A stretch of DNA of 39,430 nt from a virus. The number at the start of each line of letters is the position of its first letter. Position 1 is the first letter of the stretch. Below are positions 2,388 through 36,955 of the stretch, piece by piece. The position numbers and the translations under genes were made by a program. A model generated the notes under the pieces. It searched no databases, was not told where the DNA came from, and was given only the letters and a program-made list of their open reading frames with translations. The stretch is from IMG/VR virus record IMGVR_UViG_3300043570_000466, positions 1 through 39,430 of that record, one strand, 5' to 3'.

Positions 2388-3128
2388 CTAATTATCTTCA
2401 AGCCTATCTTCATTCCTATTGCTATCATCATGCTCATGGTCTATGGCTGGTTCCTCTTCTTTGGCATCATCGACTTTTTTCTCAAAATCTTTATCTGACC
2501 AAGGTCGGAATCCACCGATTCTAGTGATAAGTTTTTTGACTGCACGATTATGGCGCATACGAGCAGCATCTTCGCTACCTAAATTCATCTCAGTAGCGAC
2601 ATCGCCATAGTCCATAGATTCAGCGTACCTGTAAAATAGTACCGTCCTATCCTCGGTGCTAAGTTTGCGGTACGCTTTATCTATTTCAATCATCATTACC
2701 ATCATGTTGCCGCCTTCAGCGGGAGCAGGTGGCTTACTTGGACCAACTAGATTTAACTTATGCGACACGCCAAACTCACCTCGTAGAACTGAAGGTAAGA
2801 GTGCTTCGATTATATCTGATTCATAAAAGAATACATCTGAAGTTTCATAGCCAACAGATTTGGCTTTCCACTCTAAGCAATAATCCAATGCATCATTACG
2901 AAGACAACGATAGATTAGATTCTTAGCATCTTTCTCACCTATTGCTTCCCATTCATTTAACTTATTGGGATGCTCAAGGAACCACTTATATAATGATTGT
3001 TTGATATCATCTAACTCAACCATATCATATTTTCTATGGTACTCAGAAGCAACAGCGACTACAATATAGTCCCATTTTTTTATGCGTTCCCAAGGATAAC
3101 GCTCAAGGTCTTTGTTTACCACTTCCAA
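2388..3128 (-). CDS. Sigma-70-like factor
   Basis: The 246-aa product looks like a divergent sigma-type protein. Residues 10-95 form a helical region with Trp-rich segments that could correspond to region 2. Residues 150-200 carry a region-4-like helix-turn-helix (KLSTEDRTVLFYRY..... YGDVATEM...EDAARMRHNRAVKKL). The C-terminal 30 residues are very acidic and probably disordered. It may redirect host RNA polymerase to phage promoters, possibly together with the WhiB protein. The longest frame starts at TTG 3128; a GTG at 3122 gives a shorter overlap with the upstream metallophosphoesterase gene and is equally likely. It is the promoter-distal gene of the replication operon. Confidence 0.72.
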   Translation of the reverse strand: MEVVNKDLERYPWERIKKWDYIVVAVASEYHRKYDMVELDDIKQSLYKWFLEHPNKLNEWEAIGEKDAKNLIYRCLRNDALDYCLEWKAKSVGYETSDVFFYESDIIEALLPSVLRGEFGVSHKLNLVGPSKPPAPAEGGNMMVMMIEIDKAYRKLSTEDRTVLFYRYAESMDYGDVATEMNLGSEDAARMRHNRAVKKLITRIGGFRPWSDKDFEKKVDDAKEEEPAIDHEHDDSNRNEDRLEDN

Positions 3129-18484: not shown

Positions 18485-19234
18485 CTATCTAGGTGTAATG
18501 ATTTTCTTATCAGGGGTGATAAGTTTTGACTTAGGCTCTTCCTTAGGTTTACCAAAGAATGCCTTGTAATAATGTTCATCAAATGAAAAGCGTTTCATAT
18601 GTGGAGCAGTGGCTCCTGTATGGCAATAGAGTGGAACTTCTGCCTTATCGCATAGTGCAAAGAAGAATATATCTTCGCCTATAAACTTAGTTCCTCTACC
18701 CATCTCCATAAACATCTGTCCATCTGGTGCTACGGGTCTTACCTTTTCAACTACGCTACGGTGCATTAGGATAAATCCAAATCCTGCAGCATCTACTTTA
18801 ATCAGTTTATTCTCAGGTAATGGATGCACTCTGGTTAAACCAAAGCCACCTTCATTATCATTAACAAAACTAAATACTGTAGGCATTGGAACCATCAAAG
18901 GTTCCTCAGGGTTATCTGTAGTAAAGTATACTCCAGAAATTAATGGACGCTCTTTAGCATCTCTATTATCCCATAATAATCTAAATTTCTCTGGACTAAT
19001 TACTACATCTGAGTCTACCCATAGTAGCCATTCGTAGTTAGTCTTATCATACCAGTAATCAATTACTGTCTGTCTTTGTCTAGCAATCTGATTGCCTTGA
19101 CTTCTTAGTGATGTTGCAAACTCTACACCAGACTTTAACATTACATCTGTTACGCCTTGCATAAACTTGCCATCAACCATACCGTTGTCACACCATACAA
19201 CTGCTATTGAATCTTTTGTCCCCTTGGTACTCAT
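18485..19234 (-). CDS. Glycosyltransferase, GT2-like
   Basis: The 249-aa product has a GT-A fold signature: SIAVVWCDNG near the start, YEWLLWVDSDVV with the D-x-D metal site at residues 74-76, a PLISGVYF strand, then GFGFILMHRSVV and GEDIFF downstream as the acceptor-side Asp/Glu motif. It would transfer sugar from a nucleotide donor; the acceptor could be a virion protein, host surface glycan or modified base. I chose ATG 19234, 1 bp past the upstream stop, instead of the longer frame that would overlap it by 35 bp. Confidence 0.78.
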   Translation of the reverse strand: MSTKGTKDSIAVVWCDNGMVDGKFMQGVTDVMLKSGVEFATSLRSQGNQIARQRQTVIDYWYDKTNYEWLLWVDSDVVISPEKFRLLWDNRDAKERPLISGVYFTTDNPEEPLMVPMPTVFSFVNDNEGGFGLTRVHPLPENKLIKVDAAGFGFILMHRSVVEKVRPVAPDGQMFMEMGRGTKFIGEDIFFFALCDKAEVPLYCHTGATAPHMKRFSFDEHYYKAFFGKPKEEPKSKLITPDKKIITPR

Positions 19235-19235
19235 A

Positions 19236-19517
19236 TTACCACTTAACCTTGTCCGCCCAATAGGCTGCACTCATCTTACCTTTAGCAATATTCTTTCCGT
19301 GTCTTGCTTTAAAAGACTTGCGCTTTGCTTTCATACGCTCTGATTCGCCAGCCTTAGGAGCACCTGCTGTACTTGCACCTTGCTCGCCAAATCTGATAGT
19401 CTTTACTTTTTCTCCTACCTTAGCCACTACTACGTGTGACTTCTTAGGATGATTAGGTGTACGCTTTGGCTTGTTGAAGCCAGATACTCCTGCTCTCTTT
19501 AATCTTGAATCAGCCAT
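19236..19517 (-). CDS. Small basic conserved phage protein (DUF6321-like)
   Basis: The 93-aa product is rich in Lys and Arg. It follows a layout I associate with small proteins of aquatic phages, including cyanophages and pelagiphages: an SRLKRAGVSGFNKPKRTP start, a central VVAKVGEKVKTIRFGEQG strand, and a C-terminal KRKSFKARHGKNIAKGKMSAAYWADKVKW. The DUF name is from memory and moderately sure; function unknown. It belongs to a chain of tiny basic genes with 1-bp overlaps. Confidence 0.7.
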   Translation of the reverse strand: MADSRLKRAGVSGFNKPKRTPNHPKKSHVVVAKVGEKVKTIRFGEQGASTAGAPKAGESERMKAKRKSFKARHGKNIAKGKMSAAYWADKVKW

Positions 19518-33400: not shown

Positions 33401-35326
33401 TTAACTGTAAGTTTCTTGCCATTGCTCTGCAAAGGCTTCGTCTAAATTAAGTGAACCTCTACCAGCCATCTGTGCTCTAGTAGCCCATCTGTTTGTCTGG
33501 TACTGTCCAACTCTACTTGATGTTTGCATAAGTTCTCTACATCTGATGATGGCGAACCATAATGCCATAACACAGTCGGTTGGGTTCTTAGTATCAGGCT
33601 TCCAAATAATAAGTTGCTGTACTAAAGACTTAAGGCCTTCAGAGCCTTCATTGCTTGGTAATTCTATTAAGTTGTTATCTTGGAATCTACCATCTTTGGA
33701 TGAACCAAAAAGGCTTGCCATAGATGCTACACCAAATCCAACATCCCATTTATTCTTACCAGTAAAGTGTGAGTTAAGTTGACATCCATAGGATGCAAGA
33801 TAGTCACGCAGTTCTGTATCCATAGCATAGTACTTCTGGTGGGCGTTGATTTCAACCCTAAACTCTTGTGGCTTAAACTTCTCTACCCATTCCTTGATAA
33901 GAGCATTCTCTTTTTGAGGAGTAGGGTCAACCATGTTGACACAGTCTAAAACATATATACGACCATCAGAGCGATTATAGGAGACTGCTACGAAAGCAGA
34001 ACGTCCTGATACCGCTGGGTCAAAGCCAATAATAGTATAAGTTGAATCTACGTTCTTGGGATGGCCTGCCGTGTCTTTTTTAAGTGGTCCACGCTTTCGC
34101 ATACCGTTAACACATCCTGCGACAATTGTTGGCGAGAATATGGAATCGGATTGGACGTCTTCTTGCTGGTAGACCATAGCCCAGACACTCGGAGCAACTT
34201 CAGACCGCCTTGTAAATAGCGAGGGTCCATCCCACTTGGGGTATAGTCCTTGCTCATTAGGTTCGTCCTGTTCTCCTTCAGCCCTATCCGTCCAAGGCCA
34301 AAGTGTTTTCCAGTTCTTTGGGTTCTCATCAAATTCTAAAACTGATGGCATAGCCATATATGTAAAAGGAGTTTTCCCGCCGGTCCATTGGTCGGGGTCT
34401 CTAATCATTTTATATAAATCTATAGGTGCGACACGGGTTCCTACTATAAGCAGTTTGCCGTGCCGCCCTAGGCGGGTGATGACTTCTTTTTGAAGCCATT
34501 CAATTTGCTTCTCCCACTCATGGGCGTTTGCATTCATCACCACATCGTCAAGGATAATCAGGTCGGCGCGAGCACCGTAAATCTGTGACCCGAATCCTAA
34601 TGCTTGTACAGTTGGGTCCTTCTCACCTGAGTCACGTCCTGCACCCAAGTAAATCATGTCAGCAGACCAGGTTGGTGAATCTGCCTTATAGCCACCGTTA
34701 GGTCCGAAGGACACTTGCATCTTGGTCCAGTTAGGATGGCTTAATCTTGTCTTAATCGCAGATAGGAACTTACGTGCCATACCTTGCGTCTTTGATACAA
34801 TAATGATTCTAACGTTAGGGTCTATAGATAAACGATAGGTAACGTAGTTGATGGTAAGTACTGTAGACTTAGCATGCTCTGGTGGAACGTTAATAAGAAT
34901 ACGATTGGTTGCTGCTTGCTCATAGGTCATGCTAGGATGAATAAACCTAGGTGGCTTACCCTCTACCAAATCAATCCAAGACTTATGATGGTCAAAGAGT
35001 TTGGTATCTAGGAACTGCTCTGAGAAATCTTCAAATGATATATCTTTAAGATTGGCTAGGTCGGTCTTGATACCCTTACCAGATAGGCGAGCCTTGTCAG
35101 CCTTATCCTTAAAGTCGGCATCTGCCATAGACCATTGACGGAAGGTAACATCGTTTCTACCTACAGCCTTCATAGCATCTACTACGGTAGCCCCCTGGGC
35201 TAACAGTTCTAGCACCTGCAGTTGGGCAGCATCCTTAGGGATGTTTTGTACCCCTGGCTTACGACCCACAGTTGCCCCCAATAACGCTGATTTAACGGTC
35301 CCTATAAACGGGCAGACTATCCCCAA
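33401..35326 (-). CDS. terL: Terminase large subunit with N-terminal HTH
   Basis: The 641-aa packaging motor has a Walker A variant VPPEHAKST at residues 147-155, Walker B LIILDD at 256-261, a coupling motif LIVGTR at 293-298, and an RNase H-like nuclease starting GFDPAVSG with D436. Residues 32-82 form a helix-turn-helix-like region (LQVLELLAQGATVVDAMKAVGRNDVTFRQW) of the kind found in small terminase subunits, so DNA recognition may be fused to the motor; no separate small subunit was found. The start is uncertain: TTG 35326 has no Shine-Dalgarno, while GTG 35269 has GGGGG 5 nt upstream. Confidence 0.9.
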   Translation of the reverse strand: MGIVCPFIGTVKSALLGATVGRKPGVQNIPKDAAQLQVLELLAQGATVVDAMKAVGRNDVTFRQWSMADADFKDKADKARLSGKGIKTDLANLKDISFEDFSEQFLDTKLFDHHKSWIDLVEGKPPRFIHPSMTYEQAATNRILINVPPEHAKSTVLTINYVTYRLSIDPNVRIIIVSKTQGMARKFLSAIKTRLSHPNWTKMQVSFGPNGGYKADSPTWSADMIYLGAGRDSGEKDPTVQALGFGSQIYGARADLIILDDVVMNANAHEWEKQIEWLQKEVITRLGRHGKLLIVGTRVAPIDLYKMIRDPDQWTGGKTPFTYMAMPSVLEFDENPKNWKTLWPWTDRAEGEQDEPNEQGLYPKWDGPSLFTRRSEVAPSVWAMVYQQEDVQSDSIFSPTIVAGCVNGMRKRGPLKKDTAGHPKNVDSTYTIIGFDPAVSGRSAFVAVSYNRSDGRIYVLDCVNMVDPTPQKENALIKEWVEKFKPQEFRVEINAHQKYYAMDTELRDYLASYGCQLNSHFTGKNKWDVGFGVASMASLFGSSKDGRFQDNNLIELPSNEGSEGLKSLVQQLIIWKPDTKNPTDCVMALWFAIIRCRELMQTSSRVGQYQTNRWATRAQMAGRGSLNLDEAFAEQWQETYS

Positions 35327-35361
35327 TATAATTATAAATTATTAATAATATTATATAGGAG

Positions 35362-35386
35362 CGGAGTCTTAAACGGAGCGACTCCG
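35362..35386 (-). promoter_or_regulatory. Alternative hairpins in the late leader
   Basis: On the minus strand CGGAGTC pairs with GACTCCG over 11 nt. A second option, CGGAG-TCG-CTCCG, uses the same first arm, so the two structures exclude each other. They lie between the leftward promoter candidate and the terminase start and could act as an attenuator or mRNA 5'-end structure. Confidence 0.4.
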
Positions 35387-35389
35387 TAT

Positions 35390-35420
35390 ATTATATATAT
35401 ACTATAGATAACCTGTTCAA
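35390..35420 (-). promoter_or_regulatory. Candidate late (leftward) promoter
   Basis: On the minus strand TTGAAC (35420..35415) is followed by TATATA after 16 nt or TATAAT (35395..35390) after 19 nt, in an AT-rich tract upstream of terminase. The -35 is overlapped by one arm of an inverted repeat CTGTTC (35413..35418) / GAACAG (35433..35438), which may be an operator. Leftward transcription from here would cover the whole late region. Confidence 0.42.
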
Positions 35421-35450
35421 AGTACTAAAACCGAACAGATAGGTAATAAT

Positions 35451-35469
35451 TACGCTCATTCTGAGCGTA
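35451..35469. repeat. Perfect 8-bp hairpin in the control region
   Basis: TACGCTCA and TGAGCGTA pair over a TTC loop. There is no T-run on either side. It lies upstream of the leftward promoter candidate and may be an operator or a terminator for readthrough toward the accessory genes. Confidence 0.4.
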
Positions 35470-35692
35470 TATCATATATATCCCCCCTATAATATAACAG
35501 TAATTTTTTATGGGATAGTACAGTATAGCACCGAGCCTCGTTTAATAACCTCTGGGTCATAATCACACTCTCTCCTTCTGTACATGTTGGCTATCGGTGG
35601 CTTAGTGATAAGGCTAATAGTGGTGATTAGACTATCCAATAGAGATATTAGTGGGGGGTAAGTAAAAATAAAAACCAAAAGCAAAACAAGAT

Positions 35693-35766
35693 TAAAGGAC
35701 TAAAGACGTTTATAGAATTAAAAGATAAAAGCAAAAGACAAAGACAAAAGATAAAGGACTAAAGAC
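35693..35766 (+). repeat. Direct repeat in an A/G-rich tract
   Basis: TAAAGGACTAAAGAC occurs at 35693..35707 and again at 35752..35766. The DNA around (35660..35766) has almost only A and G with scattered C on the plus strand. Such asymmetric, easily melted tracts with direct repeats are found at replication origins; no protein site can be assigned. Confidence 0.5.
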
Positions 35767-35791
35767 TTATTACCCCAACACAAACCTTTTT

Positions 35792-35877
35792 TCTCAGCCA
35801 ATTCTCAGGAAACTCTCAGCAACCTATCTGCGCTGATTCGAACAGATGTTCGAGGGATTCTCTCAGGATTCTCTCAG
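35792..35877 (+). repeat. Five TCTCAG repeats with 11-bp spacing
   Basis: TCTCAG occurs at 35792, 35803, 35814, 35861 and 35872. Neighbours within each group start exactly 11 bp apart, so the copies face the same side of the helix. The LexA-type box lies between the group of three and the group of two. The second group is also a tandem GGATTCTCTCA repeat. This is the pattern of an iteron array or cooperative operator. Confidence 0.65.
35838..35853. promoter_or_regulatory. LexA (SOS) box, actinobacterial type
   Basis: TCGAACAGATGTTCGA fits the actinobacterial LexA consensus TCGAAC-N4-GTTCGA with every defined base matched, and arms are complementary for 7 bp. It lies about 160 bp upstream of the rightward gene at 36015. 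Host LexA could repress a promoter here and release it on DNA damage. No LexA or repressor gene was recognised in the window. Confidence 0.72.
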
Positions 35878-35954
35878 GTATTGTTCACCTGCTGTTCATC
35901 TAAATAAGTGCCGAATAGCCTTGTAATATGCCTACCAAAATGAGATGATTCTCC

Positions 35955-35973
35955 TGTAATCAAATAGATTACA
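35955..35973. repeat. TGTAATC-AAATA-GATTACA inverted repeat
   Basis: A perfect 7-bp inverted repeat directly before the first copy of the long palindrome. GATTACA also precedes the third palindrome copy (36927..36933), with the same 2-bp gap before GTGTATTAA, so the combination GATTACA-RA-GTGTATTAA is a repeated module and may be part of the operator or promoter. Confidence 0.5.
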
Positions 35974-35975
35974 AA

Positions 35976-35994
35976 GTGTATTAAATTAATACAC
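35976..35994. promoter_or_regulatory. Palindromic operator, copy 1
   Basis: GTGTATTAAATTAATACAC is a perfect palindrome around one central A and extends by one more A-T pair on each side (35975..35995). It ends 20 bp before the ATG at 36015, with GAAAGGG between as ribosome binding site. It is one of six copies confined to the right arm. Confidence 0.75.
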
Positions 35995-36014
35995 TAAGTC
36001 CGAAAGGGTACAAA

Positions 36015-36620
36015 ATGACTACAGCAACAAAAGCAAAAGCACCAAAAGTATCTGCAACAATTTCTTCAGTAGTTGTAGACGCTTATTCAAAGTTAGTTAA
36101 TTTAGAGGGTGAGCAAAACTTTATCTCTCTATGTGTTAAGCGACTAAAAGCCAACACCTCAAGCGTCCGTGATATTCAAGCGAGTATCGAAAAAGCGGGG
36201 GGAACTGCCCCAACGATTCGCAAGGCTCATGTTCAATATTTTATCACCATGCAGGAAATATTGGATACAGTTGCAAATGCAAAATCTCAACCATTAGCCG
36301 AATTGTTAAAAATGGCTCAACGAGTACAAACTGCCAATGGTAAGGAAAATGTTGCAGATGTAATTGCAGATGTAAAAGACTATGCCGAATTGGTGGCAGA
36401 AACTCCAACGCTTGACCAAACCCGAACACGCAAAAATGCAACAGCGCCAAAAGCACCCGCAAGCGTTGAAAACATTTTCATAAAAACAGTTAGCGACCTA
36501 AAAGCGCTAAAGGGAAATGGCTCATGGGAAACCATCAAGACAACCGACCTGCAAACCCTTGCAAATCTAAATGAGATTCTAAAGGTAATCGCAAGGAACT
36601 CCGCAACAGCCAAAAAGTAA
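36015..36620 (+). CDS. Hypothetical protein, 201 aa
   Basis: The 201-aa product has Lys/Ala-rich ends (TATKAKAPK and SATAKK) and a helical middle with VVDAYSKLVNLEGEQNFISLCVKRLKAN and IRKAHVQYFITMQEILDTV. No family recognised. It has its own operator, a good Shine-Dalgarno (GAAAGGG, about 7 nt from ATG) and its own strong terminator, so it is a stand-alone transcription unit next to the LexA box. This fits an early, strongly expressed protein, perhaps a DNA-binding or regulatory one; the function cannot be read from the sequence. Confidence 0.7.
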   Translation: MTTATKAKAPKVSATISSVVVDAYSKLVNLEGEQNFISLCVKRLKANTSSVRDIQASIEKAGGTAPTIRKAHVQYFITMQEILDTVANAKSQPLAELLKMAQRVQTANGKENVADVIADVKDYAELVAETPTLDQTRTRKNATAPKAPASVENIFIKTVSDLKALKGNGSWETIKTTDLQTLANLNEILKVIARNSATAKK

Positions 36621-36663: not shown

Positions 36664-36860
36664 GCCCAAAACGACACGCCCGAGTGCGTTGTAAAATTTT
36701 TGCCCAACACAAACTTTCCATAAGTGCGAGGAGTGTGCGCCTTGACCAAGAAAAAATCCGCCAACACAAACTTTTTGCGGGGCGTGTAGTATGGGCGAGC
36801 ATGGGCGTATACTTGGCGGGGCGGGGCGCATGGGCGGGTAAGTGTATTAAATTAATACAG
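36664..36860 (+). other. GC-rich noncoding island with G-quadruplex motif
   Basis: Between the terminator and palindrome copy 2 the DNA is clearly G/C-richer than the rest of the window. It holds two copies of CCAACACAAACTTT (36704 and 36762 region, third related copy at 35775), three copies of ATGGGCG (36791, 36801, 36830) and a G-quadruplex motif with four G tracts at 36818-36821, 36823-36826, 36832-36834 and 36836-36838 (loops 1, 5 and 1 nt). A 73-codon frame across it looks like chance. No gene is supported between 36664 and 36977. Confidence 0.6.
36843..36859. promoter_or_regulatory. Palindromic operator, copy 2
   Basis: TGTATTAAATTAATACA, perfect over 17 bp; the outer G-C pair of the consensus is lost (G to G). 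This copy lies upstream of the 36879 promoter candidate rather than before a start codon, directly after the G-rich motif. Confidence 0.65.
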
Positions 36861-36936: not shown

Positions 36937-36955
36937 GTGTATTAAATTAATACAC
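36937..36955. promoter_or_regulatory. Palindromic operator, copy 3
   Basis: Perfect 19-bp GTGTATTAAATTAATACAC, preceded by GATTACAGA. It ends 22 bp before the ATG at 36978, with a GAAAGAGAGG ribosome binding site between. Confidence 0.75.

Follow-up and report, generated by a model that had tools for sequence, protein, structure and literature searches.

Host regulators are already known to act on phage DNA, LexA at a promoter of phage GIL01 and PhoB at cyanophage genes. In Bacillus phage GIL01, host LexA is described as repressing a phage promoter through SOS boxes (PMC4551915), and cyanophage genes have been reported to come under the control of host PhoBR through Pho boxes (PMC10976474). 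Some M. tuberculosis promoters are described as being under both PhoP and CRP (PMC9645806). Two further phages, LanE43-AprE7 and LanE43-AprF5 (OX376640 and OX376641; E7 and F5 below), are reported to lyse Ca. Planktophila LanE-43, and the Nanopelagicales are described as abundant in freshwaters worldwide (PMC10202952).

The window, the whole stretch of 39,430 nucleotides analysed here, is an IMG/VR virus record whose terminase is 73.9% identical to those of OX376640 and OX376641. As in E7 and F5, it carries a WhiB-like gene (592–975), a sigma factor gene (2388–3128) and a glycosyltransferase gene (18485–19270). Judging from these relatives, its host is probably a member of the Nanopelagicales; the LanE-43 genome used for comparison was located via a 16S probe scan. 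The original prediction had remarked that no integrase was visible, which holds for the 30 window ORFs compared with PHROGs, shorter ORFs lying outside the comparison. The sites of interest lie in a divergent intergenic stretch, 35327–36014, between the leftward large terminase gene (terL) and a rightward 201-aa ORF. Its features, from left to right, are as follows.

33401–35326, minus strand: large terminase gene (PHROGs terminase large subunit, E = 1.2e-60), left flank of the divergent region; the listed start is TTG and the true start may be further in
35792–35819, plus strand: first predicted PhoP-type array, TCTCAG at 35792, 35803 and 35814 in 11-bp steps; 35802–35819 agrees at all 18 bases with the consensus found ahead of host PhoP genes
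35838–35853, no strand assigned: predicted LexA (SOS) box TCGAACAGATGTTCGA, 16/16 bases as in the LanE-43 DnaE-family operon site; kept in 11/11 loci with the same first rightward gene
35861–35877, plus strand: second predicted PhoP-type array, TCTCAG at 35861 and 35872
35883–35900, plus strand: predicted PHO box GTTCACCTGCTGTTCATC, extending the 11-bp series 35861, 35872, 35883, 35894
35977–35993, no strand assigned: palindrome TGTATTAAATTAATACA, kept in 11/11 loci with the same first gene
36015–36620, plus strand: first rightward ORF, 201 aa, of no known family; presumed target of the control region

The LexA box of the original prediction, TCGAACAGATGTTCGA, is indeed present at 35838–35853, once in the window. 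When one mismatch is allowed, a single such box is by itself no rarity in 39 kb (0.22 expected from shuffles). There is nevertheless good support for reading it as a LexA site: LexA is present in the probable host group, where recA, lexA and a DnaE-family operon are each preceded by the same box. Of 121 genomes in the LanE-43 order, 109 contain the LexA DNA-binding family. In 15 genomes of our choice from that order, the pattern CGAACN4GTTCG occurred at 50 places and in every genome, compared with 29 places for the pattern read backwards; the A..T centre seen in the phage box is shared by 42 of the 50. In 10 of the 15 genomes, the lexA DNA-binding domain has a box no more than about 200 bp ahead of it. 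The genes beside 13 inspected host boxes, assigned by eye from their translations, were recA-like (3), a DnaE-family polymerase together with a small ORF (5), lexA (1) and others (4). In LanE-43 itself, LexA and RecA score above the NCBIfam cut-offs and the polymerase is placed in the DnaE superfamily; from its context we take it to be DnaE2. The site ahead of this LanE-43 operon equals the phage box at all 16 bases, and the 14-bp core of the phage box is identical to the LanE-43 recA site.

The repeats on either side of the box had been described as neighbours exactly 11 bp apart and lying on one helix face. Both statements hold inside each group, of three and of two units, and fail across the two, which are 47 bp apart; this distance is 4 × 11 + 3, about 4.5 helical turns, and its misfit rules out both groups sharing a single face. 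The number of TCTCAG hexamers in the window is ordinary (19, with 18.0 expected). The arrangement of box and arrays is not ordinary: exact TCTCAG-N5-TCTCAG pairs occur in the window solely in the control region, and box and arrays recur at the equivalent position in related phages. Across IMG/VR, three exact TCTCAG units were found in 101 stretches and the reversed pattern in 11. Paired triple arrays whose starts are 48 bp apart were seen at L203, L206, L230, L249, L261, L265, L266 and L245, an offset close to the window spacing, which sets the arrays out of phase by roughly half a turn.

That a second, cooperatively binding protein occupies the repeats, with LexA perhaps as its competitor or partner, had also been proposed; the second protein gains support, and a host PhoP-type response regulator is the candidate. 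At six (L101, L102, L178, L181, L182 and L187) of 20 inspected host loci with TCTCAG pairs or triples, the repeats lie less than 100 bp ahead of a response regulator gene followed by a kinase-like ORF. Among solved structures, this regulator is closest to M. tuberculosis PhoP (E = 9e-90, compared with 9e-52 for PrrA); among the matches listed for it, no NCBIfam model was above its cut-off. PhoP-type matches (E up to 1e-60) were found in 104 of 121 genomes, 107 matches altogether, one genome having only a 50%-identical one. We took 80 of their upstream regions, and 79 had a best TCTCAG-N5-TCTCAG score of at least 10/12, where about 4 are expected from shuffles. The consensus upstream of these genes, ATTCTCAGGAAACTCTCAG, equals window positions 35802–35819 over 18 bases. 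Choosing the best site raises the agreement at the 12 unit letters but has no such effect on spacer and flank, where agreement is seen as well.

M. tuberculosis PhoP is reported to recognize 7-bp units of sequence TCACAGC with a strict 4-bp spacer, giving an 11-bp period, and to bind three and four units more tightly; its Asn212 and Ser216 are reported to reach the third base through water (PMC4832192). The phage repeats keep the strict 11-bp direct repeat, and their unit, TCTCAG, is one base off, at position 3. Gly and Thr stand at the Asn212 and Ser216 positions in all 25 host sequences read (26 loci tried), a replacement that fits the change from TCACAGC to TCTCAG and is not proof of it. 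MprA, another candidate reader of TCTCAG, was dropped because the neighbouring host gene is PhoP-like and a literature search was unhelpful. CutR was dropped as well, its motif being TAWATAAA (PMC12802291). At host loci L103, L104, L185, L188 and L189, TCTCAG pairs were seen by eye near haem/cytochrome oxidase assembly-like genes, which perhaps belong to the host PhoP regulon.

Overlooked in the original prediction were the PHO box at 35883–35900 and the fact that it continues the 11-bp steps of the second TCTCAG group. We defined the pattern as two GTTCAYC units 11 bp apart and found it at 17 places in 16 of 61 host genomes, compared with 2 for the control. Inspected by eye, 10 of these places precede a PstC-like gene, 2 separate phoU from a kinase gene, 3 are close to other genes and 2 fall within an ORF (L503 and L504), the last two probably unrelated. 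One PstC (L490) and one PhoU (L498) score above their NCBIfam cut-offs, and the kinase beside phoU is nearest to the PnpS and PhoR models, below cut-off. The phage box has both units at the 11-bp distance, as have the sites ahead of host pst and phoU genes. A PHO box has PhoP units on its own strand no more than 80 bp away in three regions (the window, L511 and L632), and each time it is separated from the adjoining array by exact multiples of 11; in the window, the first array departs from this register by 3. Predicted Pho boxes in a phage have been described as unreliable without binding tests (PMC10976474).

Eleven loci share the first rightward gene, namely the window and L684–L693; L684, L685, L691 and L693 lie on contigs already in the terminase-match set described below, and L684 hardly differs from the window. 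All 11 have the LexA box at the equivalent place, its arms constant and its centre variable, and 10 carry a TCTCAG pair upstream, mismatched at no more than one base, the array of L690 being apparently inverted when read by eye. Just downstream of the box, 4 loci carry a PhoP pair and a PHO box and 7 a CRP-type site (1 exact, 6 with one mismatch). Beside the fixed box, blocks of sites are thus exchanged, a PhoP and PHO block for a CRP-like site. We also checked for loss of the box in relatives that keep the repeats. None of these 11 loci has lost it, whereas distant relatives carry either element alone, so that box and repeats are separate modules.

How far such sites extend through the family was examined in 309 loci with a terminase match, of which 224 gave a control region of at least 700 bases, forming 73 groups. 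Leaving out the group of the window (10 loci) and 24 groups fetched wholly by motif patterns, 48 groups were left, each represented by an independent region. Exact sites were counted as 9 for LexA, 10 for PhoP pairs, 2 for PHO and 28 for the CRP-type pattern TGTGAN6TCACA, with 0.00 in shuffles for each. At least one of these exact sites is present in 36 of the 48 regions and in none of 96 terminase-coding pieces, although coding DNA is an imperfect control for site counts. The other 12 regions have none of the four, and some of the site-free regions belong to terminases 92–96% identical to that of the window (L018, L021 and L024). As to spacing, 15 of 48 regions have PhoP repeats of period 11 with at most one mismatch, compared with 0 of 48 for periods 8, 9, 10, 12, 13 and 14, and other PhoP periods and other CRP spacers gave no exact match among the 48. 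LexA arms with other spacers gave 3 exact matches at spacer 5 and 1 at spacer 3; these are hairpin-like sequences 170–215 bases upstream of terL, a different element.

The 101 triple-array loci reduce to 72 distinct arrays, of which 27 have an exact CRP-type site within 300 bp (0.1 in shuffles), 9 a LexA site and 5 a PHO site. A CRP-family DNA-binding domain is present in 11 of 11 hosts examined, and exact CRP-type sites are scarce in the hosts themselves (2 places, against 2 for the control, in 6 genomes). The control region of E7 contains CRP-type sites and no exact LexA, PhoP or PHO site, and that of F5, read by eye, is the same.

The presumed target, the ORF at 36015, gave no Pfam, PHROGs or NCBIfam match, and a search of a phage collection with its protein gave none either; it has 10 relatives in IMG/VR, and its predicted structure has a mean pLDDT of 54.5. 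A promoter scan gave four matches, none of them between the sites and 36015, where no good promoter was seen. The palindrome TGTATTAAATTAATACA occurs three times ahead of rightward genes (35977–35993, about 36843–36859 and 36938–36954). Other relatives have different palindromes near the same place, for example TGTCTGAAAATCAGACA or GTATGATAATCATAC, and such changing palindromes are perhaps the operator of a phage regulator with shifting specificity. On the terminase side, GTTCAAAGTACTAAAACCGAAC with flanking pairs, at about 35410–35440, is common to the window, E7 and F5, the remaining leader being different; it is a hairpin-like element conserved ahead of terL. Runs of a degenerate 9-bp unit, for example TGTCCGATTTGCCCTATCTGCCCC, were seen upstream of terL in L005, L007, L024, L060 and L067 and are perhaps read by an initiator or another regulator. 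Many contigs stop 0 to 450 bp upstream of terL (L003, L004, L010, L012, L014, L016 and others), either at genome ends or at assembly breaks in a variable region.

These sites could be present without steering phage genes at all. As phage DNA multiplies, they might act as a sponge that titrates host LexA, PhoP and CRP and disturbs the host regulons, and it fits this idea that triples are rare in hosts and that phage arrays have more units than most host PhoP promoters (3 + 2 here; up to 5 or 6 in L063 and L081). A sponge is nevertheless improbable in our judgement: in the window the sites are confined to the divergent promoter region, the LexA box is single, and blocks are exchanged at one fixed place ahead of one gene. 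We also give little weight to the idea that a phage protein, or another host response regulator from this family, reads TCTCAG. The known PhoP unit is one base away and the suggested link to PhoP is one of promoter position, which leaves room for another reader, yet 79 of 80 hosts have a site ahead of their PhoP-type gene, which is what autoregulation would give, and the Gly/Thr replacement fits the changed base.

Two further explanations assign the repeats to DNA transactions other than transcription, and both fare worse. Closely packed direct repeats in number are what iterons of a phage replication origin would look like, with the LexA box incidental, and DnaA-type boxes do occur in the same region of some relatives (8 of 48, with 0.37 in shuffles). 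The control region of the window has no DnaA-type box, however, and its repeats match the host PhoP promoter consensus, spacer included; across the family the repeats vary in orientation and number and are missing from most related regions, so that we regard an origin as very unlikely. Integrase systems have direct-repeat arm sites flanking a palindromic core, and the 3 + 2 repeats around a palindrome resemble that layout, as if the arrays were the arm-type sites and the box the core of the attP of a tyrosine integrase. With no integrase among the 30 ORFs compared, and with the centre of the box variable among close relatives while the arms stay constant, we rejected the attP reading as scarcely credible.

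We therefore consider it probable that 35792–35900 is a plug-in regulatory platform, with predicted sites for the host LexA, PhoP-type and phosphate-starvation response regulators, through which the phage probably lets host stress sensors time its genes. At the level of sequence, this is supported by the agreement of the sites with those upstream of host genes, by their recurrence in related phages and by the exchange of blocks among close relatives. Counted against it are the 12 site-free regions, the fact that E7 and F5 have no LexA, PhoP or PHO site, the scarcity of host CRP sites, the one-base difference in the PhoP unit, the lack of a good promoter between the sites and 36015, and the published caution about Pho boxes (PMC10976474). 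We infer that host proteins bind the region and control the rightward genes from 36015, and likewise the sign of that control and its benefit. Under such a mechanism, the rightward genes would be transcribed early by host RNA polymerase; activated PhoP and the phosphate regulator would bind head to tail as activators; and LexA would repress until it is removed by damage to host DNA or by damage that the infection causes. Infection would then proceed at a pace set by the state of the host, and relatives would exchange PhoP, PHO, CRP and LexA cassettes as conditions favour. The earlier suggestion that damage may control early genes or a pseudolysogenic state belongs with these inferences. A broader claim, which we advance tentatively and with more doubt than conviction, is that the whole freshwater actinophage family tunes infection through interchangeable SOS, PhoPR, phosphate and CRP-type cassettes in one promoter region, where two different response regulators share a single 11-bp register, head to tail, and no phage repressor is dedicated to that decision.

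Little has been known so far of how Nanopelagicales phages respond to the state of their hosts, and naming the likely sensors from sequence makes this response testable. The analysis also provides a sequence signature for PhoP-type control in streamlined hosts, learned jointly from phage and host, and suggests that regulator sites in environmental phages may reveal which host stresses matter to them. We did not find the combination of such sites in phages in the open papers searched, which does not imply its absence from print.

Compared with E7 and F5, the window belongs to the same family by its terminase and shares the WhiB, sigma factor and glycosyltransferase genes; regulator sites are not discussed for these phages in the first part of their description (PMC10202952), and their control regions differ in having CRP-type sites without a LexA, PhoP or PHO site. 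As described for GIL01, host LexA would act on a phage promoter and host damage would control the phage, here as a prediction; GIL01, however, is temperate and is reported to use several boxes and a phage helper, gp7 (PMC4551915), whereas here a single predicted box stands among predicted sites of other host regulators. The M. tuberculosis promoters are alike in having PhoP and CRP sites adjoining in one actinobacterial promoter and differ in being host promoters (PMC9645806), whereas here phages carry such pairs, in 27 of 72 distinct arrays. With the cyanophages, the predicted likeness is a host phosphate two-component system acting on phage Pho boxes; in those large phages, the boxes are described as preceding single genes for metabolism and replication (PMC10976474), whereas here one control region has the PHO box joined, in register, to a PhoP array.
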